Both the position numbers and the translations under genes were made by a program. The notes under the pieces are model-generated. The model ran no database searches. It saw only the letters and a list, made by a program, of their open reading frames with translations, and was not told where the DNA came from. A DNA stretch of 64,000 nt from Cheilinus undulatus (lineage: Eukaryota; Chordata; Actinopteri; Labriformes; Labridae), in contig NC_054885.1 of assembly GCF_018320785.1 (NCBI RefSeq), positions 2,988,921-3,052,920 on the forward strand. The letters are read 5' to 3'. Shown one piece after another: positions 8,184 to 64,000 of the stretch. Each line of letters begins with the position of its first letter. The stretch's first letter is position 1.

Positions 8184-9167
8184 CAGTCATGGATGAAAGT
8201 ATTGGCACCCCTGGAATTTTTCCAGAAAATACACCATTTCTCCCAGATATTGTTGCAATTACAAATGTTTTTGGGATACACATGTTTTTGCTTTTATGTG
8301 CATTGGAGCAACACAAAAAATCCTAAGAAAAAAAAAATTGACATAATTTTACACAAAACTCAAAAAATGGGCTGGACAAAATGATTGTCCCCCTTTTAAA
8401 ACTGTGGGTAAATCATTTTATTTCAAGCATGTGATGCTCATTTAAACTCACCTGTGGCAGTAACAGGTGCTGGCAATCTAGAAATCACACCTGAAGCCAG
8501 TTAGAATGTCTAAAAGTTGACTCAACCTTTGTGTTGTGTGTCTGTGTGTGTCACACTAAGCATGGAGAAGAGAAAGAAGAGCCCAGAATTGTCTGAGGAC
8601 TTAAGAAGTAAAACTGTGGAAAAATATGAACAATCTCAAGGTTAAAGACCATCTCCAGAGATCTAGAAATTCCTTTGTCCACTGTGTGTAATATAATCAA
8701 GAAGTTTATAACCCATGGAGCTGTGGCTGATCTCCCTGGATGTGGACAGAAGAGAAAAAATGACAAAAGAATGCAACACAGGATAGTTGGAATGGTGGAT
8801 AAACATCCTCAGTCATCTTCCACACAAATTCAGGCTGTCCTGCAGACTCAGGGTGCAAAAGTGTCAGCTGGGACCATACGTGGTCATCTGAATGAGATGA
8901 AGCGCTATGGCAGTTATTTTTTTTCCAAGGGTTTGAAACCAAATATTAAGTTGAGGGTGCCAACAATTTTGATCGGCCAATTTTTTGAGTTTTGTGTAAA
9001 ATTATGTCAATGTTGTTTTTTTCTTCAGATTTTTTGTGTTGCTCCAATGCACATAAAGGAAATAAACACATGTATACCAAAAACATTTGTAACTGCAACA
9101 ATATATGGGAGAAATGGTGTGTTTTCTGGAAAAATTCCAGGGGTGCCAATACTTTCGTCCATGACTG
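8184..9167 (+). mobile_element. Tc1/mariner-like element, internally deleted (984 bp)
   Basis: Bounded by long inverted repeats of about 200 bp (8184-8385 and 8966-9167), each starting CAGTCATGGAtGAAAGTATT (one base differs between ends). It is flanked by TA on both sides (8182-8183 and 9168-9169), the Tc1 target-site signature. Between the repeats lies only the DNA-binding part of a transposase; the DDE catalytic part is missing. It could move only with a helper transposase. Confidence 0.9.
8675..8900 (+). pseudogene. Tc1 transposase N-terminal fragment
   Basis: Open frame of about 75 codons that reads as the paired-like helix-turn-helix region of Tc1-family transposases (ADLPGCGQKRK, then SSTQIQAVL and SAGTIRGHLNE). 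Upstream residues of the same domain (LSEDLRSKTVEK) can be read near 8590 in another frame, so there is at least one frameshift. After HLNE the frame runs directly into the right inverted repeat, so the catalytic domain is deleted. Confidence 0.85.
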
Positions 9168-9169
9168 TA

Positions 9170-10463
9170 TGTATTAAAACTATTTTGACACCTCAGAAAC
9201 AAAAATAGAAGTCCTTGACACCCAGTATTGAGTCATCTCTTGTTTTCAATCACCAAATAACACACAAAACCCTCCTACACACAGTCTAAATTATTCAAAT
9301 GTATTTATAATGTGTTGGTGAAAAGTGTTGACACTGAAAATTCCAAAAGGTTTAATAGTTTGAGCTAAATATTCGATAGTCTTTATGCAGCAGGTTTTGC
9401 TAATTTTCCATACTATCAGTTGTTAAAATGATTAATTCTATTGTTTAAAAGTGTTGTGCTAAAGAGTACCAAGGATTTCTAAAACCTTAATCTGCCTTTT
9501 GTCCCTTCCTACCATCTTCTCCTTGAGGAGGAGCACTAATGTGTTCGCCTGCAGAAAAACAGAGTTTTTCCATCTGTGACTGCCGGATGCTTAGAGGAAA
9601 AAAAAGCTCGCAGGTAAGAGAAGCAGAGCGCATTAACATCCCAACCATTTAGTCTGCTCTGACCAAGAAAAAGCCTGAAAGCTTCCTCGGCCTCCTTTTG
9701 TGTGAAAGCTGCATTTAGAGCCCCGAGGTAAAGGGACACGCTGTGAAGGTGGTCTTCAAAGAGCTTATTAGGAAGCTACAGTACACCTCTGCAGCCTTTA
9801 AGATATCTGGGATCAAATGCCTCAGCCTTTCAAACCTCCCACTTTGGCAGAAATAGCCTCCCCCCCGCCCCCTGCCTTCTTTTTAACATCATTAGTTTCC
9901 TCTACCTTCAAAGGGAGGTAATGAAGAAAGCGCACGCATTTTCAATCTGGATACAGCTCCGTGTCCAAATACAACTACGAGGCTTTTTTAGTCTCTGGGC
10001 TCTGAGAGTGCTACGCTTTCAAACAGTAATTTAACTCTCATTTTTACAGGAGATAAAAACTCTGAGAGAGAAACGAGGATGTTTTAATGAGTAGGGACAA
10101 CAAAAGATGGTCGAAAAGCTTCAAGCATCTTAGAGTAGAGCTGTTTGGATAAAACTGTTAAATGTTGATCCCATTCTAGTGAAAATCCACCAGGATCAGC
10201 CCAACGGCAACAAGTCCAAGGCATCCAGTCTTTGGTGTTCTCTTGATTTCATTCATCAATTATTGTCAACAAACCTGTGATGGCACACTGAACTCACGTC
10301 AAGATCAAAAATGATGTTAAACTACACCTGAGGTTAACTTTCATTTCTTTCTTGCTGAGGTGTGACAGGCTTCTTCTGACAACACCGCATTTCCACCAAG
10401 AAAAGTAACAACTACGGGCTTTCATTGTAAAGAACCTAGTGTACTGAGTACTGTACTGTAGTG
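9170..10463. other. Gene-free stretch, probable mgat5b intron
   Basis: No exon was recognised. The blocks at about 9530-9740 and 9780-10030 are non-repetitive, mixed-composition sequence. The 67-codon minus-strand frame there has no family similarity I can name and no convincing splice context. Confidence 0.4.
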
Positions 10464-12900: not shown

Positions 12901-13183
12901 ATCAGTAGAGGTGTGAGGAATATCAAAACCACTTGAGATGCAAACATTCCAAATTATTATGCAAATTGGATTTTAGTGTCATAAACATTCAATTTTTTGT
13001 TAGATGGATGGTATTGTGTCTCATGGTTCTTTGGATCACTAAAATCAATCTCAGACACCTGTGATAGTTTGCCAGGTGAGCCCAATTAAAGGACAACTAC
13101 TTAAGAAGGACGTTCCAGAGGCTTGCAGTCGTTCATAAACCTACTATTCAGCCCCCCCAACCAATGCTCACAAGCAGAAACGG

Positions 13184-13418
13184 TTGCAGTGGGCCCAGAA
13201 GTACATGAAGACTTATTTTCAAACTGTCTTGTTTACTGATGAGTGCTGTGCAACCCTGGATGGTCCAGATGGAGGAGTAGGGGATGGTTGGTGGATGGCC
13301 ACCATGTCCCAACAAGGAGGGGGCGGAGTCATGTTTTGGACCAGAATCATGGAGAGAGAGCTGGTAGGCCCCTTTAGGGTCCCTGAAGGTGTGAAAATGA
13401 CCTCGGCAAAGTATAGAG
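13184..13418 (+). pseudogene. Tc1 transposase catalytic-domain fragment
   Basis: Reads as the first part of the Tc1 DDE domain: LQWAQKYMKT, the first catalytic Asp in VLFTDEC, GGGGVMFW, then ELVGPFRVPEGVKMTSAKY. The matching downstream part, with the second Asp (IFMHDNAP), starts only after the nested insertion at about 14187. The stretch after GPDGG is shortened and the downstream part has an in-frame stop, so it cannot encode a working enzyme. Confidence 0.85.
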
Positions 13419-14186
13419 AGGGCACTTTCACATTAGGCCCAGTTGTTTCAAACTGCTCCATGGCACGATTTCTCCCCCTCCCCTTGGCTTGCTTTCACAC
13501 TAGCAACATCGAACCATACTGGGCCCACTTGCGTATTTACTCAGTCTGAAACAGCAGGTGGCAGTATGCAGGTAGCTGGCTTACAGCCCCGCAAAGAAGG
13601 TGAAGGAAGAAGAAGCTACCATGGCAACCACTGGGGTCATGACCTCAGCGAAGATTGTTTTTGATTTGACCTGGCAAAAAGTCCATCCTGCAGCCGTGGA
13701 TGATTAAAATCACTTTTTAAGATGCCAGCAACTTCACTCTACGTATCTGCACATCTACGTGCAGATCAGAGGATTACATGGGCTCGTGCTACGCAGATAC
13801 AGCGGTTTTTGAGGTGACAGGAGACTTTTATTGCCTTTGTACCTCCTCTCACTGACTCCAACTTGTGTTCATCTGTAAGGTGAGTCACAACAGACCGCAA
13901 ATGTGCCAAAAATGTGAACAAACTGCCGCACTGTGGAAGGAGGTTTAGTTATTACGATGACGTCATAAAGCTGATACGGCGCTCTGTCCTGTATCCGAGC
14001 ACGGTTGCATTCACATCTCATCGGAACCGTGCCAGAGTCCACTTGAACTGCGCCAGAGCCCACCTGCCAAATGGGCCCGGGCCCGGTGCCCAGGCACGGT
14101 TCGTTTGCATTCACACTACCGAAATGAACCGGACTTTGGGCTCAAGTGCACTCAGACCTGGGACCGGGCCCCTAGTGTGAAAGCAC
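13419..14186. mobile_element. Nested hAT-like element inside Tc1 transposase
   Basis: The ends are imperfect inverted repeats: left GGGCACTTTCACATTAGG; right, read inward, GGGTGCTTTCACACTAGG. The position is fixed by the host transposase frame, which breaks at TATAGAG on the left and resumes with AGAGTTTCTGAC on the right. This is compatible with a short, partly decayed target duplication. There is no transposase inside. A second GCTTTCACACTAG at about 13490 suggests internal rearrangement. Confidence 0.65.
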
Positions 14187-22100: not shown

Positions 22101-25100
22101 GCCGTGAGCTAAGAGGCCAGTAGGGCCTTTAAACAGCTTTTCTCCCTCATGTAGTTATTAACACGCTCAAAAGGACACAGTGATAGGTACGACGGAGTCA
22201 TGATGGGTCGTTAACGGACAAGTCGGTTCAAAGAGCTGGCTCCTGTTCGAAAAGAAGTTTCTAGAGATGCCTGGATTGTGGAAATCAGGTGCACAACCAA
22301 AAAAGACTTGCAGGAAAACTGAAGGGTCAGTACTCAAAAATGTCCTCTAAAGCTCTTTTAGTTCAAATATCTCTGTCAGGGACAATGCTAGGCAAGACGA
22401 TTCTAAATCAAGGGCTGCACAGTGGCATGGGGTGCACTGTTGCAGCAAGAAGGTCTCTGGTTTGTTTCCCGGTCAGGGCCTTCCTGGGCGGAATTTGCAC
22501 ATTGTTCCTGTGCATGCATGGGTTCTCACCCGGTTCTCTGACTTCCTCCCACCACCAAAAATATGCTCATTAGGCTAACTGGTGCCTCCAAATTGGCCGT
22601 AAGAGTTGTTGGTTGTTTCTATATGTCAGATCTGGGGTTGAACGGCCAGGGCGCACCCTGCCTCTTACCCAGTGACAACTGGGATAGGGTTTACGCCAAG
22701 CTGTAAAGAAAATAAAGATGCTAAACCACATAATGCATCCATCACAACAGCATGGCATCACAGTAGAAGAGTCTGGTTGCAGCCTGCCTGCAGTCAAGTC
22801 CTTTCATGGCAGAAAACATTTGAAGCATCAACAAATCAGAAATCTGGCATGACAAAAACTAGACTAAAACTAACAAAAACAGATCGGTGACAACTAAAAC
22901 TGACAAAACCTAAGTTTAGTTTTTGTCTAGATGACTAAAACTAGACTAAAATGTAATGTTGTTTTCGCCAGACATTCGAAATCCATGATATTTCTCCACT
23001 GTGGCTGAATCTGTCAAAAAACAATTCAGCGGTATCTATTCTGCCTCTCAGCTGTAGAAAGCAAGCAAAAAGTTAATGAAAAGCATCAAACATCCTGTTG
23101 AATTCTGGGAAAACCTGCTGCTCTCTGAGTCCCAGATTTCAGTGATTTAATATACAGACATGCTGCTGCTTCCTCTCTCAGATCAATACTCACTTTATCA
23201 CTCTGCTCTTATTCAATGCCAGAGATTCCTGTGACACTAATCACTGCATGTTTATCAGACTTGGCTGTTTCCTCCCCCACAAGGAAGAATGATGATGACC
23301 TGTATCTTTTTAGTTTTACCCCTACTGGATATTCAGAACCCCATTTATCCTGGGAAAGGCTCTCCTAACATTCTGATGCTTCAAGTCCTGCCAATATTCA
23401 AGTTTTGGTATCATGACAGCCCTACTTTCTAGCGCTGGGATCTGGGTTCTTAATAAAACCTGAACTCATATATAACATCTCTGCTCAGTCTAGTGACTTC
23501 AGAGATGCTTCATTTGCTTTCAACTTGTGGAAAAACACAGTTATAAAGGGGGGATGCTAATTATGGCACAGCAGGTGTCATGCTGTTACAATTAACACCA
23601 AATCAGGCTGACCCTGCAGGGCCTCTACATCAAACACAGATTATCAGTTAGTTAAAATCAAAATCTACCAAAACCAGAATTTAAACCATGCCAAAAAATA
23701 GAGGACCCAGTCAGCCAACCCTGGTTAAATCTGTGTTTCCCTTCATCAAAAATTGCAAGAAAACTCCTGCACACGGTCTAAATGTCCTAGTCATTACATT
23801 TTAATGAGCTCCATGTCAGCACCAAATTGCTACCAGTGATTTCGTGCAGTTTCGATGGTAAAAAGGAGTTCACTTGAAACTTTTAATCACTGACAGCAAG
23901 AAATGATTCCAGACTGGATGCTTTAGGTTTCTATTATAGGTGTCACTCTATTAAACAGACATGAATACTGTTTGATTTTACCTATGATCATAACATGCAT
24001 CAGCAAAAGCCTGCAGAATGCTCCTAGACAGGAAGGGGGATTACAAATATGCAAATGCAGAAATATTATATTGTTGCAAAAAGACTCCTGCAAACTTTCT
24101 AAATGGCACAAAACATTGGCATCATTTCAGTATGTAAATATTGCAATGCACTTGTGCAGTTCAAAACTGTGCAGAAAAACCCAATACTGGCTACAGAGGA
24201 CATCTATGCTTCTTGCTGTGGTATAAAAATAGATATCAGAGTATCATATCACAATTTATAAATCTTATATTGTGAGCACAGGAGTCCTGCAACTTCAGTA
24301 CAAACCAGTCATGGAGCCAGAATTTTAAACTTCAGTATGATATGCCGATGATTTTGGGCAGCTTAGACGGTGTGCAGGAGTCTGCCTGCAACTTAAGATA
24401 ACTGAAAACAAGAAATCAAACAACACTAGATGACTATGTAGATCAATACAGTTCAATTATGCCTAGTATGACATCATGTAATCAAAACATCACTGTTTTA
24501 ACACTGTTTTTTACTATTCCATCAAAATTAGGGCTGAACGATTTGCAAAAATAATCTAATTGCAATTTTTTCCTGCAATATTGGGATTTGAAATGCGATT
24601 ATTTAGGTTCCTCATTTTTTTCTGTTGTTCAACAAACATGAGCAAGAAATCATTCTATATTATAATAAGTACAATATTAGATAAGTTAAACCAGGGCTAA
24701 ATTTAGGGAAAAAAATATCTAACTGCCATTTTGGCTCATATAGCAAATTTGATATCAATTGCTTTATTGAAGGGATGATCATTTCTCTTATTCTTCTCAT
24801 TTTGATGAAGAAAAATAAATACATGAGCAAGAAAAGTAAGATTTTTCTAAAAAATTAAATAAATACAAATATACTTGAAGGTTTGAATAACGTATAAAGT
24901 AGTGATAACGTGTGGCTCTTTTATGTCCAAAATTTAAATATCATTCCCCCAGAAAACCTTGAATAAAGGAAACTTTTTTGCCCTTTTTCACCATTTTCCC
25001 ACTTTTTACCTATTTAAGCTACCTTTTGCCTTTGAAAACCACTTTTTTCCTACTTTTTTGCCACTTTTTTGCCACTTTTATCCCATTTTTGCCTATAAGG

Positions 25101-26504
25101 GCTATCTTTTGCCATTTAACACCACTTTTTTTCCTACTTTTTTGCCCCTTTAGACACTTTTTTTGCAACTTTTTACCCATTTTTTGCCATTTTTATCAAA
25201 TTTTTGCCATTTTTCACCCAATTTTCTCCACATTTTCACCCATTCAAGCTACCTTTTGTCATTAAATACCACTTTCTCCTAGTTTTTGCCCATTTTAGCC
25301 AATCTTGACTGTTTTTTGCCCATTTTAGTCACTCATTTTTTTCATGGTTTTGCCACTTTTGTACCATTTTATGCCAATTGTTACTCATTTTTGTCACTTC
25401 TTACCCATTTTTGCTACTTTCTGACCCTTTTTTCACTTTGCCTACCCATTTTCACCCATTTTTGTTGCTTTTTGACCATTTTTGCCACCTTTAACTTATT
25501 TCTATTGCTACTTAAGCTGTTTTTGCCACTTTTCACCTCTTAGATTGTGGTTCTTGCAAAGATATTTTTCAACTATTTGGCTCTTTGGTGGAGCAGGGTT
25601 GAGTAACGCTGGTATAAAGGATAAAAAAGAAAAAAAGATTCCAGCTGGTTTTGACACTTCTCAGGTCAAAGAAATATTGCACTGTCTGCGATTTGAATAC
25701 TGCAGCATGCCAAATTGCAATTTAATCTAATTTGTGATTAACTGCCCAGCCCTAGTCTAAATGTCAGATTCTGGCACTGTAGATTTTAGAGGTTCTGCAG
25801 AAAGTCAAAAAAATTTAGACTTGGACACTAAGACAACCAATATCCTGTGATTTCTTCCTTTTAATTTGCAAAACTGCAGACAAACACCTGCAAACCCCAT
25901 AAAAACTCTGCTGACATTGGTGTCTGTGGTAACAGTCCCAGTAGACTGAGCTATTTGGACAGTGAGTAGGGTTTACCTAAACTTTGTTAAAGTTCATCAT
26001 CTCCTCTATTTCACTTTTCACTTTTATTTATCATTATAATAAAGGAGACTGTTGTTTAAATCATGTTGTATTGGAAAAGTATTGCACATTTTGATCATTT
26101 TACAAGTATGCATCAAATTTCCTGCTGTGTGGAGGAGTAAGTAAAGTCATTGCAGCCTCTTTCAGTTCTTTATTATGTTTTATTGATCCACAGTCGTCCA
26201 TGCAGAGTTTATTAGTTTTAAGTATGGATATTTTGACAACCCTAAACTCTAACTGCAGACACACATGAGCTAGACTTTACATTCTGTCCTTTCTTTGTGT
26301 TTACCTGATGACTTTTTAACTTCTGTGTTTTTTTCTTGCATTATTAAAATTTCAGGCTGTTTTTAATCTTTTATGGCAGATCAAATGTAAAGATTATGTC
26401 TCACGGTAGAGAGTAGGAAAGGTAGGCTGGTCTCACCTGAACGGTTTGAAAGTGAGAAGGCATCTCCTCAGCATAATGAAAAGCTCGCTGCTGGTTGTGA
26501 TCAT
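19104..26504 (-). CDS. mgat5b: Alpha-1,6-mannosylglycoprotein beta-1,6-GlcNAc-transferase B, N-terminal exons
   Basis: MGAT5B (GnT-Vb/GnT-IX) is a Golgi type II membrane enzyme that adds beta-1,6-linked GlcNAc to N-glycans and O-mannosyl glycans. Two coding exons are visible. Exon 1 (26504 down to 26437) starts [15 protein letters not shown] and ends KPF plus AG. Exon 2 (19216 down to 19104) completes the Arg and continues [20 protein letters not shown] (the signal anchor, about residues 24-43), then [17 protein letters not shown]. The join is in frame across GTGAGA and CTGCAG splice sites. From what I know of the family, vertebrate MGAT5B has the same arrangement: a short cytosolic tail, an FVLGIGFF-type anchor and GDSPFT after it. 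Exon 2 ends in phase 1 at GTAAGA. The catalytic exons are not in the window, so intron 2 exceeds 19 kb. Intron 1 is 7.2 kb. The start codon is set by alignment with the usual 15-residue leader before RRC. Confidence 0.9.
19217..19816. other. mgat5b intron 1, distal part
   Basis: Immediately upstream of exon 2 in gene orientation. The acceptor side is CCTCCCTGCAG. No other gene is visible. Confidence 0.5.
19817..20257 (+). mobile_element. LINE reverse-transcriptase 3' fragment
   Basis: Plus-strand frames read as the end of a non-LTR retrotransposon [54 protein letters not shown], then a stop and frame changes. It is the same family as the fragment at 2962-3253, extending further 5'. The ATGG array that follows appears to be an expanded form of its tail. 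It is dead: several stops and frameshifts. Confidence 0.75.
20258..20625. repeat. (ATGG)n microsatellite/minisatellite
   Basis: Expanded ATGG repeat with interspersed ATGC and GATGATGG variants, beginning exactly at the 3' end of the LINE fragment. A block of about 65 bp (GCATGCATGCAGGGATGCAT followed by GGATGGATGGATGATGG) is repeated near 20463 and 20527. The long open frames here (HPSIHPS or MDGWMD) come from the repeat and are not genes. Confidence 0.95.
20626..22402. other. mgat5b intron 1, gene-free
   Basis: No exon was recognised. Around 22184-22275 is a weak hAT-terminus-like stretch (ATGGGTCGTTAACGGACAAG, then TCAAAGAGCTGGCTCCTGTT). Similar sequence with a hairpin occurs at 42912-42934. 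Confidence 0.4.
22403..22700 (+). repeat. Teleost dispersed repeat with tRNA-like head
   Basis: Reads GGGCTGCACAGTGGCATGGG, ACTGTTGCAGCAAGAAGGTC, then GGTTCTCTGACTTCCTCCCA and CCAGTGACAACTGGGATAGG. This matches, from memory, a very common interspersed repeat of teleosts. Part of the same family appears in opposite orientation at 37745-37930. No coding content. Confidence 0.65.
22860..22975. repeat. GACTAAAACTA-type degenerate repeat
   Basis: Short run of (A)GACTAAAACTAACAAAAAC-like motifs and their reverse complement. A second T-rich version is at about 61200-61400 (TTTTAGTTTTAGTT). Confidence 0.5.
22976..24528. other. mgat5b intron 1, gene-free
   Basis: Nothing recognisable. There are several near-repeats of the phrase CCTGCAAACTTTCTAAATG / CCTGCACACGGTCTAAATG (near 23765, 24089, 24370) that hint at an old, degenerate tandem structure. 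Confidence 0.4.
24529..25754 (-). mobile_element. hAT-like non-autonomous element (TAGGGCTG ends), copy 1
   Basis: 1226 bp with inverted ends TAGGGCTGAACGATTTGC and, on the other side, TAGGGCTGGGCAGTTAATCA. It is flanked by an 8-bp near-duplication (ATCAAAAT at 24521-24528, GTCTAAAT at 25755-25762; 6 of 8 match). It is the inverted counterpart of the element at 47195-48286. The interior holds the T-rich complement of the GTGGCAAAAATGGG array (about 24970-25550) and a reverse copy of the head seen at 5120. No transposase is encoded. Confidence 0.85.
25763..26436. other. mgat5b intron 1, proximal part
   Basis: No additional exon or repeat was recognised. The donor of exon 1 (GTGAGA) is at 26431-26436. 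Confidence 0.5.
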
Positions 26505-39400: not shown

Positions 39401-42314
39401 ACATTTTGAACCGAAGTACGCTCATGTCTGGGACACAGAGCCGTCTCCGTCCTGAGCGGACGGCTGGACATTCCCATCATTAGTACTGGTGTGTAACTGT
39501 CTGAACAGCTGAACATGAAACCTTCAGGGATCTGGAAACTGTACCCAAGGATGAACCAGACTTGTTGAGGTCCACAGTTCTCCCCCTATATCGCTGCTGA
39601 TTTCTTTGAATTTTCCCATGATGCCACACAAGGAAGCAGCGTGTTTGAAGTGTGTGTCCAATCAACTCACATGTTGTCAATCAACCTATCAGAAGCTTCC
39701 AAAGCCATGACATCATCATCTGGGCCTTCCCAGATCATTTAAAGTAGTGTTTCTAAACTGGTGGGTCGGGACCCTACAGTGGGTCATGGAGCAGTTTTCA
39801 GTGGGTCGCGAATGTGTGTCTGGAAAAAATGGTGGCAAAAGTCTATGAAGAACATTCAACCGTACCATTTATTTTACTGTTTTTATTGTGATAATGGGTC
39901 AATTTAAATGTTTTATTTATATTTCAACATATTTATCTCCTTTTCTTGCAATAAAAGAGCTGTTTTTACCCTGTCAATGAAGTAATTTCTCAACATCTTT
40001 GGAAAATTGGCTAAAATTTACACGGTATCATGGGGAACAAGAAGTGTAGAACATGAGTTTTGCCCTGTCTCTTGTTCCTGTCATAAATTCTGTTCCATCA
40101 AAGATCCCAAGTGCAACATTTTTATTTATTTAAAAGTGCATTGTTGAAAATTTTTGGAAATCTGGGCGATGATTTGTCATCAAAGATATTGGTGGTTCCT
40201 GGGGCTAGAGCAGTTAATAATCTTAGTGTATGTGAGCGTCTGACTTTGAATAAAATAATAATAAAAAAATCCTCTAAAAAATCGTCTCTCTCATTATTCT
40301 GGGATTTAGCAAATAGAAATAATTTTGGTAATCCTGACTGAGCTAAAACAGGAAAAGTTTAGTCTGATTTAATATCAGACAGCGAGGAAAAAAAAAGGTT
40401 ATGTGTCTTTTTATACAGTGGATGTTCTTGTTTCAACTGTGTTACTGAGAGAAAAGCATATCACCTCAGAAACCCTGGAGATAAATACATGAAAACATTT
40501 TATTTTACTCAATCAGCTGTGGAAATTTGTAGATTGTAGCTGTTCTAAGAGATACAAACACATTATTGAGGGAAGAACAGTTTTGACATCCTAAAATAAC
40601 TAGATAAATGAGTCAAAATCTCAAGAAAACAAGCAAAAGCTCTCGTCTATCACAGCAAAATGATAACTATGAATATATCTGCCTGGTTAAGAGCTTCTTT
40701 TCACACATCTCTTGTACCAGAAAACTTCCACGGCTCATTAAAAGCAGCTCTGAGACTCAATTTTGGCTCACAATGACTGTTCTCTAGAAGTAAAGGCCAG
40801 GTAAATGGAGCAGGTTTAAGACAGTTCTTCTCTCCAGGATAGTGTCAGTGACATTTTAATAAGGCTTTTATAAACACACGGCCCTATGACTGTTTATGGA
40901 TTTAAATTAAGCTGGCAGCGGGAACATTAGAATAATCTGAGTAGCTCCAATCAAACATCAGACATTTGCTACTCTAGAAGCGGTCAGAGAGCTTGTGATG
41001 GACTTACCGGTGAACAGCTCGAGATCCCCTCCCCTCCGAAGAAGAATTCATCTCCGTATGCGACTATAGCTGTGTGCCTGAATGAAAAAGCACAAAGTTA
41101 TTACAAAGAGAACACTTTTATTGTCGCATTTAATGTCCCTGTTAAAGTTTTTTATTAACTAATTTTGGAAAAAAAAAAATCCTAGGGACTGCAGTAGTTC
41201 AGACTCTAAGGACCTCTGGCTGGGAACCAGAGGGCTGCTAGTCCAGACTTCAGTATAAACCTTGGACTGGTTGCTGGAGAGGAGCCAACTAACCCAGAGG
41301 GCATTTATCCACACTTCAACCCCGAAACAACCACGCTGGAGGGCATTTTTCTACACGCGTCCAGTAAGACAGTGTCTCTTTGTCCACTGGGAGCTCCTCT
41401 GAGAGCATTTTTCCATATTTCATTTATGGAATGGCGTCATAAGAAGGCACTTCAGCTGCATCTTCTCCAACATCAGGACAAAGATTGAGATTATATTTCC
41501 CATCAGGGATTAATATAAAGCAAATGTTATTATCATGAATGGTGACGTTAAGGTAAATTCTGATCATCACTGAGAGCAATTCTGGACATATCTTCAACAA
41601 ACGCTGCATAAATATGACCATAGATGACAAAAATCACAATATTTTGGCAGTTGTACATTGCCTCATTATTTCTGACTCTTTGATTTCCTATTTTTTAAAC
41701 ATATATTTGATTTGAGCACATGTTTAAAGCTGTTTTATGGTTTTAATTTGATTTTTAAAAGTCCATGTAATAGCTTCCAGGCCAGGAACAGGTCACAGGC
41801 CTATCTAACCTTTATCTGTTGTGTACACAAATGTAATAAGATTGTTTTCATAAATCAGGTGATCGCAGGTGAGCCATCTGGCAATATAAAAGAGAGAATA
41901 CATACCAGATCCCTTCCAGCTGTTTTCCTATGAGGAGAAGAGAAGTAAGAAGGGACAGATTATAAAGTAAACCTGGAGTACATAACCCTCCGCCCACATT
42001 CGATAGGATAAATCAGTCACGATTCATAATTTATCTTCATTATAAATTAAGAAAAAATACAGGAAAATGAAAATGTAAGGAAAGATCAGCACATTACACG
42101 GTAAGAACCGTATCAAACAGACTAAATACACAGTCCAGCTCCAGCATCTTGACTTGATATTTATAATTAAGAGCCATTTGTCCCCGAGGCCAGACTGTAT
42201 CGGATTTTATTATCTCTACTTACCTAACATGATGGGACTGAGGCTGCGGGCCATTCCTCTCGATAAATCATAAATGTACAGTTGGACATTGTACCGCGTA
42301 GCATTCTTGTCCAT
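36460..42314 (-). CDS. desi1: Desumoylating isopeptidase 1 (PPPDE cysteine protease)
   Basis: DESI1 is a PPPDE-family (C97) cysteine protease reported to remove SUMO from substrates and to work as a homodimer. The coding sequence has six exons (minus strand, high to low): 42314-42224, 41927-41906, 41077-41008, 38248-38139, 37268-37146 and 36550-36460, ending in TAA. They total 507 bp, or 168 residues, the same length as the human protein. All junctions keep frame with GT-AG sites; exon 2 is only 22 bp. The start is [18 protein letters not shown], with an in-frame stop two codons upstream. The PPPDE fold covers about residues 9-145. The catalytic His39 lies in GIWHTAI and Cys109 in [19 protein letters not shown]. 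The C-terminus is [13 protein letters not shown]. Introns contain a Tc1 remnant and other repeats. No lesion was seen, so it should be functional. Confidence 0.96.
37745..37930 (-). repeat. Teleost dispersed repeat fragment in desi1 intron
   Basis: Reads AACCATCCATTCTTTATCTA, CTGGACTGGTTGCCAGTCAA, CGGGCAATTTAGAGTCCTCC, then ATGTCTTTGGACTGTGGGAG. This is the reverse orientation of the widespread family represented at 22403-22700. It lies in the intron between exons 4 and 5. Confidence 0.65.
38750..39745 (-). pseudogene. Tc1-like transposase remnant in desi1 intron 3
   Basis: Minus-strand fragments in several frames read through a Tc1-family transposase: an N-terminal piece near 39480-39680 ([20 protein letters not shown]), a middle piece at 39283-39516 and a catalytic piece at 39046-39252 ([20 protein letters not shown], then [10 protein letters not shown]). 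Stops and frameshifts separate them. The right edge holds CTTTGGAAGCTTCTGATAGG on the minus strand. The left edge (about 38750) is decayed. Confidence 0.85.
39754..39835 (+). mobile_element. hAT-like end fragment
   Basis: AGTGTTTCTAAACTGGTGGG, then AGTGGGTCATGGAGCAGTTT and CAGTGGGTCGCG. Same family as the complete 238-bp element at 54990-55227. The partner end was not located. Confidence 0.5.
41180..41420. repeat. Possible SINE-like repeat in desi1 intron 2
   Basis: CTGGGAACCAGAGGGCTGCT followed by AGTCCAGACTTC resembles the anticodon-to-B-box part of a tRNA-derived SINE. Internal phrases with AGAGGGCATTT / GAGGGCATTTTTC / GAGAGCATTTTTCC recur three times at spacings of about 45-70 bp. Not assigned to a known family. 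Confidence 0.35.
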
Positions 42315-43098: not shown

Positions 43099-43192
43099 AT
43101 GGGTGTCAATAAGCCAAGCAAGTGAGAAGATTTTATCTAGCCTGTACGGATAGGAAATAAGTCAAATAAATTCATGATATAGGTTCTTTGGT
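43099..43192 (+). repeat. ~90-bp direct repeat, left copy
   Basis: CATGGGTGTCAATAAGCC followed by AAGCAAGTGAGAAGATTTTA and ATAGGTTCTTTG. The same sequence recurs with about 90% identity, split by a LINE insertion, at 49639-49654 plus 51176-51252. The two copies flank the THAP-DDE transposon block in the same orientation. Confidence 0.85.
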
Positions 43193-43637
43193 GTGACTTT
43201 GTTGTCTGTGTCTGTGATGACATGTTTGTTCAGCGCATTTACAGAGATACCACTGTTTTAAGCACCCTGAAACAGAGTTGTGACAGGTTTTTCTTTTACA
43301 CATATCTGCCCAAATACCGCTCTGTGCTCAGTGACTGGAGAGACACTATGCATAGCAAATTCATTTTTCTCATCATTGTTTAATAGTTTACTTTACTGAA
43401 AACTGAGTTCTGTATTTTGGCAGTTTGTTAATTTTAAAAAGTGACAAAAAAATGACAAACATTTGATTCTACACAGATTTCTGTTTATTTTTCAATTAAA
43501 CATCTTGTGTAATTAATTTGATTCAATTTCATGTATATTATATCCAGACAGAGCATATTAACATTAACAGTAAAACAAAGTCTAACCTGCCTTTTTGGGA
43601 GCTACAAACACCACAGCAACAATTTCAGTGATCTGTA
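43193..43637. other. Left flank of transposon block
   Basis: AT-rich, no gene. Contains CTACAAACACCACAGCAACA near 43613, which weakly resembles the reverse complement of a stretch near 49540 beyond the THAP exon. Too weak to call a terminal inverted repeat. Confidence 0.3.
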
Positions 43638-44483
43638 CAGAGTAGTTATCAAACTTTTTTTTTGCCCAAGGTGCACCTAAGGTTAAACAAAAATCTCAAG
43701 GCACACCATATTCATATCAATACAAAACAGACTTTTAAATAATATAACAATCAAGGTGGCCCATCAGGGGGATAAAGGGGAGAGGTTTCTGGGACCCAGT
43801 CAACTGGGGCTGGCAAAAGGTGGCAAAAATTGGTGATGGAAAAAAACACATGGAAAAAGTGGGCAAATGGGTACAAATGACCAAAAAGGGTTAAATGTTG
43901 TAAAAAGGTGGTAAAAAAAAAAAATTGGTTAAAAGTGATTTAAATTGGAAAGTGGCCAAAGAAAGGTAAAGAGTGAAAATATGCAAAAAGGTGACCAAAA
44001 AATTGGTTGAAAGTGTCAAAAAGGTGGCAAAAGAGTAAAAGTTTGCTAACTGGTTGTAAAAGCGTGTTAAAAGTGATGAAAATAATTGGCTAAAAAAATC
44101 AAAATAATAGCAAAAGTAGGCAAAAAACAGCAAAAGGTAGCAAAAAGGGGTTGATGCAAAAAGATCAAAAAAAGTAGCAAAATTGATCAAAAGTTAAAAA
44201 AAAAAAAGTTGCTAAAATTAAAAAAAAAAAGCAGCAAAAAATGGTTTAAGTTATCAAAATAAGAGGCAAAATGGGTAGAAAGTTGGTTAACTTGGTTAAA
44301 AGTAGCATGAATTCATAGTTTCAACACCAAATTCAATCTAAGAATAGCTTGCTACATGAAATACCTGTTAGCCACTGATATCATCAATAAATCACATTCT
44401 ATAAAAACATTCTCTGGATGTTTTTCAGGGGACCGGCCAGATCCCCGAGGCACACCTTGACTTGCACCATTTGAGAACCACTG
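43638..44483 (+). mobile_element. hAT-like element with array, copy 1
   Basis: Right end TTTGAGAACCACTG, left end a decayed CAGAGTAGTTATCAAAC; both belong to the CAGTGGTTNTCAAAC type. Just inside the left end is TTTGCCCAAGGTGCACCTAA, shared with 59110-60226. It carries the GGGGAGAGGTTTCTGGGACC module and a degenerate GTGGCAAAAA array (about 43813-44290). The target duplication is not preserved. Confidence 0.7.
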
Positions 44484-44662
44484 CCACAGCGCACTAGAGG
44501 ACTTTTTAGAGTTTATCAAGCCTTATGCTTTAATATTAGAATCTCTCTTACAGATTTGAAGGGTGATTTACATGAACAATGCTGACAACATTATTGAAAT
44601 GACAATACAAAAAACAAACTTTTTTTCTTGTGAAAATGTCTGTTGGCTCCACATCTACATTA

Positions 44663-47600
44663 CTAGCACTTGCTTGCCCAGGCTTTGACTAAAGGTCTAT
44701 TTTGGTAGTTAACCAAGAGGCAGGCTACTGAGTTCAGCTGATTGATGCTGCCTGTGAGTGAAAGAGGGATTACTGTACTGAATATCTTGTGCTCTTTCAC
44801 CCTTCGAATAAGCCGTTCAACATGGACTCTCAGTCTTGCAATAGACTGAGTCTCCCTGACCTCGGCTCCAGACATTTGTGCTCTCTTTGACAGGAAGGCA
44901 GGTATGTAGACCTTGCAGGGCACGCAGTCTCCCACAAGAAAACCCTTGTCCACCATGATTGCCATTGTTGGTTTCAGCTGTGACACGATGCCGGACTGCT
45001 TCACGATCTCTTTGTCACTGATGGAGCCTTCATAAAGTGATGACACAAAGGTCACTGCACCATGAGGGGCCATACCAATCAAACCTTTGAAGGTGGAGTG
45101 TGATTTGTAGGTGGAGAAGACCTCGCTCTGAAGGAGAAGAGAGTTTGGTGTTTGGCAGTAGAGTTCAGTGCAGTCCAAGATCACCTGAGTATCAGCAAAG
45201 CCATGAAAAACATCTGGCAGGTGAACCTTCACTTCCTCCTCAGAAAGCCAAATGCCCACAGCTCCCAGCACAGTGTAAAGGAAGTTTGCCCAGGTGTTGA
45301 TGACGCAGCTCACTGTTGATTGGTGAATTTTAAATCTGTGGGCCAGATCTTTCTCCATCAGACCCAATGATAGGTAGGTCATGAACAGAAAAAACTCGTC
45401 AATGGGCTGAAGTGACTGTGGAAAAAAATACAGTTACCTCATAATTAGAGACCATAACTGATGCAACTAATTGTCATGCAAACAATAGAATAAAAAATCC
45501 ACTATCTTCCAAACAATTTTACAGATGATGGGTTGAAAGGGTTACTATTTTGGTTGAATAAAGTAACTAATCACCTAAAAAAATGAAGTAAATTAACCTT
45601 AAAAAAGTTATCAGGTAACTTTAAAACCATCCATTATTTTTAGGTGAACTAAATGATAAGCATAAGCAAATTATGATAAGAAAAGAAAAAACAAGATGGC
45701 TTGATTGAACCCTTACACACCTGTGGACTATATAAGAAAGGTTTTAGTTTCAACCAGCAGTCATGTGTGAGAGGCTCCAAAGATAGAGCAGGGCAAATGA
45801 TTGAACTTCAGTTTCAATTTTGACTTCCTGTGTCCATTAAAACAAAATCTAGGATCAATCATAGACAAGTTAAAATTATTACTGTGCCATATTCCTCATT
45901 GCACTTTTTGAGATGTATTATTTGATTTTGTTTTCATGTGTTTAAAGTTTTCAAGAGTAAAGATTGTTCAAGTTCAAGTAATGCATGTGATGCAGCTATA
46001 GTAAAATCACTTATTTACAGTGTTTAACTGTGATTTTAATAGCAAAGAGAAAAATTGCGATTTTAAATTTTGCAATAATTGAGCAGCTCTTACATGAAGT
46101 GTTATCAATTTCCAATAGATCGAGGTATACATGGTTATAGAGTTGAATATCATTATTTAGAAAAAGTTATCAGGATTTTCAAGGCATAGAATTTAACTTA
46201 AGACACTTTAAGAGAATGACTTACAGACATTAAGATGAAACAAACCTAAGTGACATCAGAAGTTGTACTGCTAACCAAAACAATGCACTGTGTTCAGAAT
46301 CTTATTACCTGCTCCATAAGAATAAGACATTTACCGTTGCATTGGCAGTGTGAGGGGCATCAGCTGCACACCGAACTCTTGTAACACGGACCATCTTGTG
46401 CGTCGCTGGTTCTATCTGCCTCCAAAATGCCATCAGGTGGGCGTGACTAGCAAACCTGTAATACATTCATATCCTCCTGAGACCCTGTGTGCACAACAGA
46501 GGACATCATTGCATTTTGACTTTCCTACAACACGGAAAAACTTTCTGCTATTCGGACTTTAGAAGTATTTGTCCAGAATTTTCATGAAGTTTAAAGTTAT
46601 TTGCTTGGAATATCTGGAGAATTAATTTTGGGTACTTTTATGGGGATTTAAGGAATTTATTCATGGAATTTGGGGGATCTGATTGGAAATGTGTGGAGGG
46701 GATATTCTTTGAGATTTTCCTGAATTTTTATAGAACTTTTAGGGAATTAATTTGGATTTTGGAGGGAACATGTTTGGAATTTTCCCTTTGAAATGTGGGT
46801 TGAATTTATTTGTAAATTTCTGTTAATTTGATTAGAATTTTTTGGGCAATTTTCTAGATTTTTTTCAGGACTTTTCTTGGGATTTTAGGTGAAAACTTTA
46901 TGAAAATCTTTCGGCCTTTTCAGAAAAGCTAACTGAGACATTTTGGGAATATTTGAGGAGATTTGGGGGAATTTTGAAAGAATTTTTAAATTTCACAGAT
47001 TTATTTTTGTAATTTAGGGGATATTTTCTAACCCTCTGTATTTTAAAGGGATTTTTTCCGGGATCTTCAGAACTTTTAGTCAAAATTTAGTTCATACCTG
47101 CCAGGTATCAGGTCCATTATCAGAAACAGGACTTTACTGTATGTCTTTGAATGACTGATACCATTTCTTACTGACTGAAAAACCTCCTATCAACTAGGGC
47201 TGGGCAATTAATCACAAATTAGATTAAATCGCAATATGGCATGCAGCAATTTTCAAATTGCAGACAGTGCAATATTTCTTTAACTAGAAAAGTGTCAAAA
47301 TATCAGTTTGATATAATCTTTTTTTTTCTTTTTCATGCGTTATACCAGTGTTACTCAACCCTGCTCAACCTAAGAGCCAAAGTGTTAAAAAATACCTTTG
47401 CAAGAGCCACAATCTAAGAGGTGAAAAGTGGCAAAAACAGCTTGAAGTAGCAATAACAATAAGTCAAACATGGCAAAATGCTCAAAAATGGGCGAAAATA
47501 GGAAGGAAAAGGGTCAGAAAGTAGCAAAAAAATGGGTGAGAAGTGACAAAACAATGAGTTACAGTTGGCATAAAATGGTCCAAAAGTGGCAAAACTGTGG

Positions 47601-49442
47601 CAAATAAATGAGTGAAAAGTGACTAGAATGGGCAAAATGCAGTCAAGATTGGCAAAAATGGGCAAATAAACAAACAAATGGAAAGAAGTGGTAACCTATT
47701 TAATGGTATAAGGTAGATGAAATGGGTGAAAAGTGGGGAAAGAATGGTGAAAAAGGGCAAAAATGGGATAAGAGTGGCATAAAGGAGTGGCTAAAATGGG
47801 CAAAAACTAGAAAAAGTGGTATTTAATGACAAAAGGTAGCTTAAATGGGTGAAAGTGGGAAGAAAAGGGTGAAAAAGGGCAAAAATGGGATAAAAGTGGC
47901 AAAAAAATGGGCAAAATGGGCAAAAAAGCCTTCAAACCTTCAAGTATTCTTTTAATTTTTTGTATGAAAATCTTACTTTTACTACTCAAGCATTTATTTT
48001 TCTTCATCAAAATGTGAATAATATGAGAAATGATCATCCCCTTCAATAAAGCAAATGATATCAAATTTCTATATGAGCCAAAACTGCAGTAAGACATTTT
48101 TTTCTAAATTTAGCCCTAGTTTAACTTATCTAATATTGTACTTGTTATAATATAGAGTGATTTCTTGCTTATGTTTGTTGAACAACAAAAAAAATGAGGA
48201 ACCTAAATAATCGCATTTTAAATTGCAATCGCAATATTGCAGGAAAAAATTGCAATTACATTACTTTTGCAAATCGTTCAGCCCTACTATCAACTGGCCA
48301 AAACACACTCAAAATGTAAACACAATTTTAAAAATCTACATTTTGTGTGTTACACTGTAAGGTAAGCCTGTTGCCCTCATTTACGGACATAATTTTTTGG
48401 TAAAAACCATCCTGTTCAAAGACAAGTCTTAATACTAGTCAGATGATCTGACTGATGAATCAGAAATGGGTGAAACTAAAAATGCATTCCAAATAAAAGC
48501 TCAGCTCTCAGGAGGATATATATATATGTAATATTTGTAAATGGTGTTTGAGGGGGTTTACTGAGCCCCTAAAACTGAAGACAAAAATGCACATGTACTC
48601 TCAACATCAAATTCCTTAAAACACTGAACCAATCACTTGTTTTGAGCTGCTTCATTAAGATATATAGAAATCTAATTGTGAAACTTGAAATTTCCTTGTA
48701 AAAAACATTTGTTTACTGTCTTTAAGTGCTACATACAACTTGTCATCATTTTCTCTCAATATAGCAAAAACATGCATGTAAAGAAAAGGTGAAGATAAGA
48801 TGAGGGGAGATAAGGAACCGCATCACTGCAACTATGGATTAAACAATCTTTATAAAACGCCTTAAATGATTACCTTGTGTAAAAGTGAATATCATCATCA
48901 GATGCTGCAAACCTCTCCAAACCAAACTTGCTGGTGATGGCCATCTCCTCAATTTGTTTTTGCAGCCTGGAGATCTCTGCACGGAGATACTCAGTTTGGT
49001 CCGAGGCGAGATCAAGAGCAGCAGGCTCGGTAGTGGAGCAGTAGTCATGGTCGGAATATTCAGAGCCCATGGAGGGGTCGGTGTGTGTTACGTCTGTGTC
49101 CGGTCGCTCTGTCCTTTCCACAAGAGTGTAGTTGTTCCACTGGAACAGCGCAGGGATGGCTCCTTTTCTCAGACGCCTTCTCCCGGATGGAGTTTGAGGC
49201 TCGATCAGGTCGGATTTTAGAAAATGCCGACTACAGAGTCTGGTGTGGTTGGTAATTGTAAAATCATCGCGCCTTATATTAATTATCCATCTTCTCTGTT
49301 GTTCTTTGTCTTGAGGAAAGGTGTGGAAACTGAGAAGCGAGCTAAATTTAGCCGAAGATGAACACTGCGGCACACAGCAATGATAGGCAGAAGTGCTATC
49401 CTCCCGTCTTTGGAAAGTCAGTTTAAGACGTTTGGACGCCAT
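44663..49442 (-). CDS. THAP-domain DDE transposase (Harbinger/ISL2EU-like), apparently intact
   Basis: Three exons on the minus strand: 49442-48874, 46455-46335 and 45415-44663. They join in frame with GT-AG sites to give 480 residues and no stop. Exon 1 encodes an N-terminal THAP zinc finger (C2CH): Cys22 and Cys27 in HCCVPQC, Trp52 in RRWI, Cys70 and His73 in LCSRHF, then AIPALF. Residues 160-189 form a short coiled-coil-like segment (LRAEISRLQKQIEEM). Exon 2 carries HLMAFWRQIEPAT and MVRVTRVR. Exon 3 has a helix-turn-helix (DLAHRFKIHQSTVSCVINTW, about residues 253-272) and a DDE_Tnp_4 nuclease with Asp311 (ILDCTE), Asp386 (MVDKGF) and Glu430 (HVERLIRR). This layout is known from THAP-containing Harbinger-like (ISL2EU/IS4EU-type) transposons. 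A second, YqaJ-nuclease-like gene found in some of these elements is not seen. Clear terminal repeats were not identified. A domesticated host gene is an alternative. Confidence 0.88.
46560..47090. repeat. GGAATTT-type degenerate repeat
   Basis: About 500 bp built from phrases such as GGAATTTATTTGGAATTTG, TTTGGGGGAATTTT and GGGATTTTAGG, with no exact period. It lies in the intron between THAP exons 1 and 2. No coding content. Confidence 0.65.
47195..48286 (+). mobile_element. hAT-like non-autonomous element (TAGGGCTG ends), copy 2
   Basis: 1092 bp. Left end TAGGGCTGGGCAATTAATCA; right end reads CGTTCAGCCCTA, so the ends are inverted TAGGGCTG. It is flanked by a perfect 8-bp duplication, CTATCAAC, at 47187-47194 and 48287-48294, the hAT signature. 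It contains the CAGTGTTACTCAACCCTGCT head, a GTGGCAAAAATGGG array (about 47420-47920) and a unique AT-rich half. Same family as 24529-25754, opposite orientation. It sits in the intron between THAP exons 1 and 2. Confidence 0.92.
48295..48873. other. Intron between THAP exons 1 and 2, proximal part
   Basis: No gene. A short (AT)n stretch at about 48518-48530. The exon 1 donor GTAATC is at 48868-48873. Confidence 0.4.
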
Positions 49443-49654
49443 TAAAATACAACGTAAACACAGACAATAAAATGAACCGACAGCAAACAAAACAACAAAT
49501 ATAATTTCTGGAAAATAGATTGATTAATTCCCTGAATAGCTATGGTGTTTGAGCCCAGCGCTCCGCTTGCCGGAAGTTGTTCCACGGTCTAATGTTTGTC
49601 ACCGGAAATACGTCAGAGGCTGCCGTGCATAGAGCGACATGGAGTCCATAAGCC

Positions 49655-51162
49655 GTATTTGTGATATTGATGTTAAAGAAAATGTCAGATACCTGGGGAT
49701 TCATATTACAAAGGAGCGTAAGGAAAAAGGAAAAACTAAATTTTGCTCCAAAGCTAAAAAAGACTAAATCAATCTTTAATTTATGGTTACAAAGGGACTT
49801 TTCCATGTGGGGATGAGCCTCCCGACCAAGGCAGAAGCTGTCTCCAGATTTGTTTACCCGGCCTTGTCACTAGAGGTCAGCAGCGTACGGTGGCCCTGAA
49901 TGAGATAGGAGAGTTACAGTTTGTTTTAAGATGTCATTATAATGCCTTCAAACTTCCTGTCAAACTGTCCACCTTCTACTAACAGGCCTTGTTAGCATGG
50001 AAACTCTGCCCTATACTCATCAGTTCTGACCCCACAAATCAATTATCTGGAATAATGAATCTATCACCAAACACAGTCACTATACCTGAACAAATGGATA
50101 GAAAAAAATGTTATGTTTATACAATATTTGTTTGAGGAAGGAGGGGAAGCTGTGAAATATGAGTTTTTTATTAATAGATTTAATTTTCCTATAACTTCTC
50201 AAGAATTTAATTGTGTAATCAAAAGTATTCCTATAAAGGTATCAGGGAACTAATGAAAGGTCTGAAAAAATACCAAGTTATACAACTGAGTATCTCTTAA
50301 TTAATGGAATTGATATTAAAGATAAAAAAGTGCACCAATAAGCATATTAGGATGACCCTTCAGATTCCAGAACAATCTTACCCTGCTGGCAAGGCCTGCT
50401 GGTCCGCTCAATTTGCCGACATAGATATAGATATAGATGCAGTCTGGCTTCTAACTTTCAGATACTGTATAGACGAAAAAGGTCGACAAATGCAATGGAA
50501 AATCTTACATAACATTTATCCCACCAACTTACAAATTTCCAAAATGATGGATAAATCTCCAGACTGTACCTTCTGCCAAAACAACGTAGAAAACATAAAA
50601 CATCTGTTTTATGAGTGCAGCCCATGTTACAACTTCTGGAAACAATTGGATCAATTTATTGTTAAAAAAAACTCTAAAATAATCAACCTCAATTATCAAA
50701 GTATTGTAATTAATTTCAATCACCAAAAAAAAAAACAATTTGAATTTATCATTAATCTATTTATCATACTGGGAAAATACCACATCCACAAAATGGAATT
50801 TACTGAAAACAGCCACCCCCTCATCAAAGTTTTTTTAATTGAACTCAGCAATTACATCAGATCTTTAACCAGTTGGAACAGAAAATGTGCAAAAACCTTA
50901 GAAATATATAACAAATTCTTTAGTCCTTTCTAAATGAGTTTTTGTTTCTTATTTTTTCTCTTGGTTGGGTAAGCCTCAATGTATTATTATGTATTATGTG
51001 TATATATTATATATCATGTCTTTGTTGTACCTCTGTTTACGTTGGTTTATTTTAAGTTATTATTATAGTCTGTCAACATTATGTTTGTATGCCTTTATGT
51101 AATGTCATTTAATTTTAATTAATAAAATAATAATAATAAAAATAATAATAATAATAAAAATA
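49655..51162 (+). mobile_element. 5'-truncated L1-like LINE with target duplication
   Basis: Flanked by a 13-bp direct repeat, GAGTCCATAAGCC (49642-49654) and GAGCCCATAAGCC (51163-51175), differing at one base. The body is the 3' part of an L1-like ORF2, a 3' UTR and an A-rich (AAT)n tail (about 51120-51162). It inserted into the right copy of the 90-bp direct repeat, separating its first 16 bp from the rest. 5' truncation is usual for LINE insertions. Confidence 0.92.
49660..50933 (+). pseudogene. L1-like ORF2 C-terminal remnant
   Basis: The start reads ENVRYLGIHITKERKEK, then in other frames LPTKAEAVSRFVYPALSLEV, typical of the post-RT part of fish L1 ORF2. From 50304 a 209-codon open frame carries the C-terminal zinc-knuckle region: MQWKILHNIYPTNLQISKMM, CTFCQNNVENIKHLFYECSP and NFWKQLDQFI, and ends at a natural stop at 50931-50933. 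There is no RT or endonuclease domain, and frames are broken before 50304, so it is non-functional. Confidence 0.85.
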
Positions 51163-51252
51163 GAGCCCATAAGCCAAGCAAGTGAGAAGATTTTATCTAG
51201 CCTGCACAGATAGGAAATAAGAAGAATAATTTCATGATGTAGGTTCTTTGCT

Positions 51253-52352
51253 GAAATCATTTAACAGAGGAGAACTCAAAATGGGGGGCAAGAAGTGATG
51301 TCTGCTGAGAGAAGAGCTGCCAAAATGTTCTTGGTTAAAGTTCTGTGCTTTATATTTGGTAATAAATGTTGGTCTACCTTGATACCTTTAAATTGCTTTA
51401 AACATACATCACAGAAAAATCAAGAAAAATAGTTTTGAAAGAAAGAAAGAAAACTGGAACTCAAATATAAGAAAGCTACCGTGATTCAAAATAAAAAGCT
51501 GTTTTGTAGAACAGACTTGTTCATATACACCAGTTAATTACCCAGTCTCTTACCTTACAGGGTTTATTTGGTGAATAGCATATTAGCTTTTCCACTGAAA
51601 GCATGCTTGTTACAAAACAAGGATCTTTTATACATTAAAGGGTCTCAGCTAGCCTCTTAGCCCAGTACTGGACTCCTCTAGACCTTTGTCTCTCTTCATC
51701 TAGCTAGTAGTAGAAAGTCTGCAGGACTAGTAATATGTGATACTGACCACCTGAATGGCAGGTACATTGGTTAAAACCACTTTTTTTGTAAAGAGTAGGG
51801 CTTGTGCTCAGTACATGTGGAGATGATTGCAATGTGCAGGTCCATTTAGAGCGTTGATGTACTAACTCGTTGTTCCCATTTACTCCTCAAGACCATTTTT
51901 CACTCCCTGTCCCATGTCTGGCATTCATTGGAATCATGTGACAACAAAACCACTATTTTCATTAATTGAAAAATCAAGTATTATTGGAGTAAAAAACCAG
52001 TACAAATACCAATCATATGCCATGACACTGATAAATTTGGCAGTTCAAATGAACCCAAATGCTGCCAGTGAAGCACTGGAAACCAAACGATCCAGAGCCA
52101 AATGATCCGGATCACTTAAAAGAGTGTAAATTCCCACCACTGGAGTTTGAAATGACCACTAGAGGTCTTTTTCAAATACAGCGTTTGATTTCTAATTCCG
52201 ACGCAGCAGGTGGCGCTAGTGAGCCAAAGCGCTGTGAGTCAGCCGCCATCAAACAAACACCAAAGAAGACCAGTCCACAGCCAGCCACAACCCCTCACTG
52301 CTCCTGGACCAAAATAGACAGTTGAGGGCTCAGCTGCTGACATCAACCAGAA
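51253..52352 (+). promoter_or_regulatory. flii upstream region and 5' UTR
   Basis: Precedes the flii start codon. The proximal 250 bp are GC-richer, with AGTCAGCCGCCATCAAA (YY1-like GCCATC) and no TATA box. An 88-codon frame (52059-52325) overlaps this stretch but has no recognisable domain. The exact transcription start is not visible. Confidence 0.4.

Positions 52353-64000
<11,648 letters not shown>

Follow-up and report, generated by a model that had tools for sequence, protein, structure and literature searches.

A stranded ISL2EU transposon copy with an open transposase reading frame in the genome of Cheilinus undulatus

The DNA considered here, called the window below, is a stretch of 64,000 nucleotides of the fish Cheilinus undulatus (contig NC_054885.1, forward-strand positions 2,988,921 to 3,052,920, or C21:2988921-3052920 in our naming of this 1.17 Gb genome). 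It contains on its minus strand a three-exon gene encoding a transposase with a THAP zinc finger, a helix-turn-helix (HTH) and a DDE catalytic domain, and this locus is, with near certainty, a stranded copy of an ISL2EU transposon. The three-exon reading frame is real and the copy cannot move itself. The explanation that is preferred here, and that is held to be probable by a modest measure, is that the frame owes its openness to an intact start, to selection at the protein level during part of its history and to a limited time for decay, a situation in which no present role in the host is needed.

The gene is made of exon 1 (49442-48874, residues 1-189, carrying the THAP zinc finger), exon 2 (46455-46335, residues 190-230) and exon 3 (45415-44663, carrying HTH_Tnp_4, DDE_Tnp_4 and the stop codon), all read on the minus strand. 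A first-pass annotation of the sequence had joined these exons in frame to 480 residues, and the splice search confirms this structure, with GT/AG borders, 480 codons followed by a stop, and no internal stop; three further combinations of acceptors and donors likewise stay open, with lengths of 477, 479 or 482 residues. The domains listed in that annotation are equally well founded. The zinc ligands Cys22, Cys27, Cys70 and His73 are all there, as is the catalytic triad D311, D386 and E430 (numbering of the 480-residue form, one residue lower in the 479-residue form). Pfam places THAP at residues 22-100 (E = 4e-18), HTH_Tnp_4 at residues 231-280 (E = 2.4e-13) and DDE_Tnp_4 at residues 310-466 (E = 8.8e-37), with scores far over the cut-offs. 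A search of solved structures produced five matches, four of them named THAP and one named "hypothetical protein", all covering the THAP part, and a search of NCBIfam gave no match. The splice sites can be followed in related copies of the same genome: the exon 1 donor AG/GT is found in all seven copies checked (the window copy and six relatives), and the AG of the exon 2 acceptor is shared in position by 10 of 11 copies, the exception being C10. The position of the exon 3 acceptor varies slightly among the relatives, and the comparison of the exon 2 donor covers a single relative.

ISL2EU belongs to the PHIS superfamily (Han et al. 2015, PMC4482050), and its marks, as given in the same paper, are a transposase of the THAP+HTH+DDE type, a gene for a YqaJ exonuclease, a terminal repeat usually starting with GG and an AT target duplication. 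The assignment of the window locus is based on these four characters. The transposase is recognised by Pfam, as described above. The YqaJ gene is supplied by a sister copy at C4:18.23 Mb, the closest among the scored matches (the genome searches score the best candidates only), in which this second gene is frameshifted and detected by Pfam (YqaJ, 2.7e-14). The terminus of the C4 copy, GGGCTCTATGCACGGC, starts with GG, and AT adjoins the right end in the window copy and in C4 alike. In the window, the convergent YqaJ gene is reduced to a relic on the plus strand (43189..43327), in which comparison with C4 reveals about the last 46 codons, the remainder being gone; a YqaJ fragment cut by the end of the locus is also present in the C13 relative (Pfam, 3.4e-7). 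A Pfam search of the minus-strand frames over 45416-48873 and of the plus-strand frames over 49443-54444, translated with stops as X, found no partner gene, YqaJ or other, and the zf-RVT domain of a LINE was the only match. The window copy does not possess both terminal repeats, its left end being replaced and its right end split, and it is an ISL2EU member by descent rather than as a complete element. Three other families were considered and rejected: Kolobok, which requires a TTAA target duplication where AT is observed; PIF/Harbinger, which requires a Myb/SANT second gene and a TWA duplication where YqaJ and AT are observed; and the P element or THAP9, whose catalytic domain was not found by Pfam with E values up to 1, DDE_Tnp_4 being listed instead.

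The loss of the ends becomes apparent when the window and C4 copies are aligned. Their homology extends from 43189 to the right end, where both stop at ...GCATAGAGCCC followed by AT; beyond this shared end the flanks differ, and a LINE intervenes in the window. In C4 the 16-base terminus is continuous. In the window it is interrupted by a LINE fragment (49636..51159, plus strand, zf-RVT domain, target duplication ATAGAGC) that separates the inner part of the minus-strand terminal repeat, GCTCTATGCACGGC (49622..49635), from its tip (51160..51168), which lies on the far side of the LINE and carries the second copy of ATAGAGC. At the other extremity, C4 continues past 43189 into the YqaJ gene, and in the window the left end of the element is replaced by a copy of the right flank of about 80 bp (43109..43188, plus strand), identical at 73 of 80 bases to 51169..51248 on the same strand, its source, which begins with the AT target duplication. 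In the genome search this copy appears as 85 bases at 91%, the last few of which overlap the element; over the 80 bases outside the element there are 7 differences (8.8%, 95% interval 3.6-17.2%), of which 3 are adjacent, and counting these three as one event gives 6.4% with a lower bound of 2.1%. The first 60 bases or so of the right flank have no match besides this copy among 40 scored of 74 candidates, and the other flank matches start near the end of the flank. The left end of C4 was looked for and not found. An inverted-repeat search in 43500-51500 yielded no usable terminal repeats, a result explained by the loss of the left end and the splitting of the right one. With the left end and most of YqaJ missing and the right terminal repeat split by the LINE, the window copy is immobile; the loss of self-mobility that characterizes domesticated transposases is therefore present at this locus.

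The protein search of the genome gave at least 93 matching stretches, with 89 of 513 candidates scored. The protein encoded by C4 is 94% identical in exon 3 and 88% identical over residues 1-125 (exon 1), and its introns are about 5% diverged from those of the window. Ten further relatives show 52-68% identity in exon 3, with weaker or shorter matches beyond them, and exon 1 was also found in the loci of six of these ten (C13, C3a, C18, C3b, C10 and C22). A DNA search with the 3' half of the element (43189-46334) returned C4 as the sole close copy among 40 scored of 2883 candidates, the remaining matches being confined to a dispersed repeat at about 43630-44490. The C4 transposase is dead, with at least four lesions: a stop at codon 14, a 2-bp frameshift in exon 1, changes of -14 and +10 in exon 2, and an exon 3 acceptor changed from AG to TG. 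The first-pass annotation had proposed that an active transposon would be revealed by many near-identical copies with shared ends, and had considered a recent arrival; with a single close copy among the scored matches, its divergence and the lost or split ends, the former is not borne out, and the latter finds no support. At least one of the 11 relatives examined is intact, at C3:51.15 Mb (C3:51152069-51157087), with a complete three-exon frame that is open over 511 residues, the DDE residues and about 60% identity in exon 3. An open frame alone therefore does not single out the window locus. In the C13 relative, an open frame of 249 residues lies just upstream of the THAP exon (1270-2016 of the fetched locus) and has no Pfam match above the cut-off.

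The terminus GGGCTCTATGCACGGC also delimits a family of short non-autonomous elements. It occurs, with at most one mismatch, at 217 places of the genome, as compared with 2 for the reversed control. Twenty places, all exact matches, were fetched from 100 listed places; AT directly precedes the repeat at 17 of them and a far end is recognisable at 18. Sixteen standard copies were used, after removal of L055 and L059 (no far end), L054 (about 66-70% similarity to the others compared) and L064 (about twice the length). These copies measure 397-449 bp, 13 of them have matching 2-bp duplications (AT in 12 cases), and their mean divergence from the consensus is 4.6% (3.1% outside CpG). Among the 20 sampled elements, the best pair is 93.6% identical, the median of the 190 pairs is 86.6%, and there is no sign of recent activity or of young copies. 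Their 5' ends resemble the 5' end of the window element at about 66-86% over the alignable parts, a level of similarity that suggests an origin from a cousin lineage. The age of the short family would be of the same order as that of the window copy, whether the latter is taken as half of the 5.4% divergence between C4 and the window or as half of the 8.8% flank divergence.

The preferred explanation can be developed into a sequence of events. By analogy with the ISL2EU family, the protein would bind the element ends via its THAP finger and HTH, cut via its DDE domain and insert at AT, and in the past the family would have moved full elements together with about 200 short non-autonomous ones that share the terminus. 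One copy would have landed upstream of the gene named desi1 in the first-pass annotation, and would then have lost its left end and its YqaJ partner. The simplest account of this loss, suggested by the flank copy of about 80 bp, is that a break at the left end was faultily repaired: sequence would have been copied from the uninserted, element-free chromosome before end joining into YqaJ. The insertion of the LINE split the right end.

Whether the frame was kept after movement stopped is a question that can be quantified, because a left-end loss with a rough clock, a dead sister and a short family of similar age are found in one genome. Intron 2, the remainder of intron 1, and the YqaJ relic with its 3' sequence were taken as neutral pieces, and differ between C4 and the window at 88 of 1643 positions (5.4%, interval 4.3-6.6%); with the repeat-rich stretch (95/1048) and the 5' flank (15/197) included, the figure becomes 198/2888, or 6.9%. 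The exons are diverged by 4.2% (exon 3), 2.8% (exon 2) and 8.8% (exon 1). Indels number 4 over 1429 aligned positions in the exons, one of them being a gap of 21 in-frame bases in exon 1 of the window that C4 retains, versus 16 over 1643 in the neutral pieces (Fisher p=0.02). A codon model without clock and without CpG masking assigned almost all of the synonymous change to a single branch and left the C4 value unbounded, and for this reason a clock (equal neutral lengths for the sisters) and the removal of CpG codons were added. With eight of the ten non-sister relatives as outgroups, C4b and C22 being omitted, this model covers 381 codons, and the differing codons in this masked set comprise 22 nonsynonymous and 19 synonymous ones. 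Fixing C4 at 1 yields a fitted neutral rate of 0.0266 per site and branch, near half of the neutral divergence. The YqaJ relic failed as a neutral control because only about 46 codons are left.

The principal rival is a gene retained by the host, that is, domesticated, with selection acting on the animal after immobilisation, for example in favor of a DNA-binding protein recognising the dispersed terminal repeats; this is a serious possibility, to be placed somewhat short of an even chance. Several results weigh against the preferred explanation. The window frame has no frame- or splice-breaking lesion, as opposed to at least four in C4. With clock and CpG masking, dN/dS is 0.17 on the window branch (p=0.0003 against 1) and 0.58 on that of the dead C4 (p=0.12 against 1), and the two differ (p=0.038). 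The chance that an unconstrained frame would have survived is 0.0002-0.27 over the rates tried, and 0.0005-0.07 for the two lower substitution rates applied to the whole branch, three quarters of the indels being assumed to be frame-breaking. Host retention is further favored by the six clock variants, in all of which the window dN/dS remains low (0.12-0.19, p 0.0002-0.014), by the intactness of all domains and of the DDE triad, and by the flank copy, whose divergence of 8.8% compares with a neutral 5.4%. The point estimate of this flank clock places the whole window branch after that event; the lower bound of 3.6% places about two thirds of it there, and the lower bound of 2.1%, with adjacent changes as one event, about two fifths.

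This evidence for a host role is nevertheless sensitive to the way in which it is obtained. The domestication envisaged in the first-pass annotation retains its dN/dS below 1 on the window branch, but the signal weakens when the clock or the CpG masking is left out: without clock, the window gives p=0.06 (p=0.001, from lnL, with neither clock nor masking), and with the clock but without masking C4 is also below 1 (0.46, p=0.007) and the sisters do not differ (p=0.13, from lnL). The difference between the sisters is likewise non-significant for exon 3 alone (p=0.12), for exon 1 alone (p=0.15) and without clock (p=0.13). Parsimony gives similar nonsynonymous to synonymous ratios of 8:7 for the window (8 unclear) and 16:12 for C4 (12 unclear), and exon 1 as a whole is more diverged than the introns, which also counts against retention. 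The date of immobilisation depends on 7 flank differences, 3 of them adjacent, and errors can arise during repair synthesis; part of the dN/dS signal could stem from selection before the element lost its mobility. The 5' leader or promoter region of the gene (49443..49621, minus strand) is not depleted in CpG (observed/expected ratio of 1.18 over 49443-49640), and this was considered as an indication that an active host promoter is present; the argument was rejected, as the same CpGs persist in the dead C4 copy. The intact paralog at C3:51.15 Mb also counts against retention.

A further point against a host role concerns the splicing of exon 2. An element with inverted ends CCTCCTGAGA (46473..48515), absent in C4, is inserted 17 bases upstream of this exon, in place of the sequence expected to hold the branch point. 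At the exon 2 acceptor, 7 of 18 bases are pyrimidines in the window, compared with 9 in C4 and 11-15 in eight relatives, the window value being the lowest of the ten copies, and no branch-like site was found in the range tested, as is also the case in two of the eight relatives. The insertion may weaken splicing, and skipping of the 121 bases of exon 2 would shift the frame. These same features are the basis of another rival, in which the three exons would not be one gene in practice, exon 2 being skipped or the protein never made; with the exon 1 donor and the exon 2 acceptor as widely conserved as described above, this idea is very improbable. The inserted element is flanked by AT on both sides, and its 20-base end is found at 66 places of the genome with at most one mismatch (control 0).

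The first-pass annotation had drawn an argument for selection from two later insertions that spared the exons, a hAT-like element in the intron and another insertion beyond the 3' end of the gene. The former is indeed in intron 1 (47195..48286, 8-bp target duplication CTATCAAC), not alone however but nested in the 46473-48515 element. The latter does not stand: the dispersed repeat between the two transposon genes (43641..44485) is common to the C4 copy and is therefore older than the split between the two, and the second later insertion near the gene is the LINE at 49636-51159, upstream of the 5' end. The argument is too weak, since only two later insertion events are involved and about two thirds of the remaining element is non-coding. 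At 24529-25754, the two ends of the hAT-like element (TAGGGCTG..., one mismatch each) are also matched in inverted orientation about 1.2 kb apart, which suggests a second copy of this hAT family.

An active or recently active autonomous transposon would account for a complete transposase with intact catalytic residues. It is highly improbable: self-movement is refuted by the missing left end, the split right end and the loss of most of YqaJ, the one close copy among the scored matches is dead and separated by an intron divergence of about 5%, and the 20 sampled short elements include no young copies, their closest pair being 93.6% identical. The window transposase could, if expressed, cut other elements in trans. 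A bolder proposal, rather unlikely but not negligible, is that of an ISL2EU transposase caught in the middle of its domestication, with mobility lost at both ends, purifying selection acting on it and a capacity still to bind a terminus present at more than 200 places, while C4 decays neutrally as an internal control. If true, the gene would amount to a regulator already made, with its binding sites forming a network dispersed over the genome. The conversion of transposases into host genes is recurrent, yet its first steps are rarely seen, and ISL2EU elements are little studied. The preferred explanation remains a stranded ISL2EU copy with an open frame, for which partial past selection and limited decay time would suffice.

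Relative to a DESI-family gene, presumably desi1, the transposon is situated upstream, before the first coding exon; the exons of this gene are on the minus strand near 42278, 41058, 38179 and 37243, and the last of them matches the DESI/PPPDE structures 2wp7 and 3ebq about equally. On the other side, exons encoding leucine-rich repeats (LRR) are found on the plus strand at 58710 and 62336 and are presumed to belong to a gene that is probably flii. The earlier statement that every other transposon reading frame of the window is broken holds for the three that were scanned, two Tc1-like and one LINE, all of them fragments. Tc1/mariner-like transposase fragments lie at 8630-9208 and 13139-13549, with HTH_Tnp_Tc3_2 matches under the Pfam cut-off. 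Scans of the window with Rfam (gathering thresholds) and for tRNAs detected nothing.

Several known systems can be compared with this locus. HARBI1, a domesticated Harbinger transposase, is not known to have a THAP domain, and the catalytic region of THAP9 is of the P-element type. Both are host genes, derived from a related transposase in the case of HARBI1 and from a THAP transposase, that of the P element, in the case of THAP9, and both are named in PMC5753468. Another parallel is provided by the domesticated Kolobok transposases of Xenopus and their T2-MITEs, as presented in PMC6004289: the same THAP+DDE architecture, related MITEs and the same argument for domestication. The frog genes are kept as single copies by purifying selection, and their synteny is conserved between species. 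Kolobok differs by its TTAA target and an extra H2CH motif (PMC6004289), whereas the window element is associated with AT. Among the papers listed in literature searches on ISL2EU, no title or abstract opening points to a domesticated ISL2EU gene; in Etchegaray et al. 2022 (PMC9179366), transcription is reported, together with the statement that, to those authors' knowledge, no proof of activity has been reported. ISL2EU itself (PMC4482050, and PMC9179366 for teleosts) is among the closest systems, with the same THAP+HTH+DDE transposase, a YqaJ gene, an AT duplication inside A/AT/T, a repeat that usually starts with GG and a presence in teleosts, and the window copy differs from it in being left-truncated and immobile.

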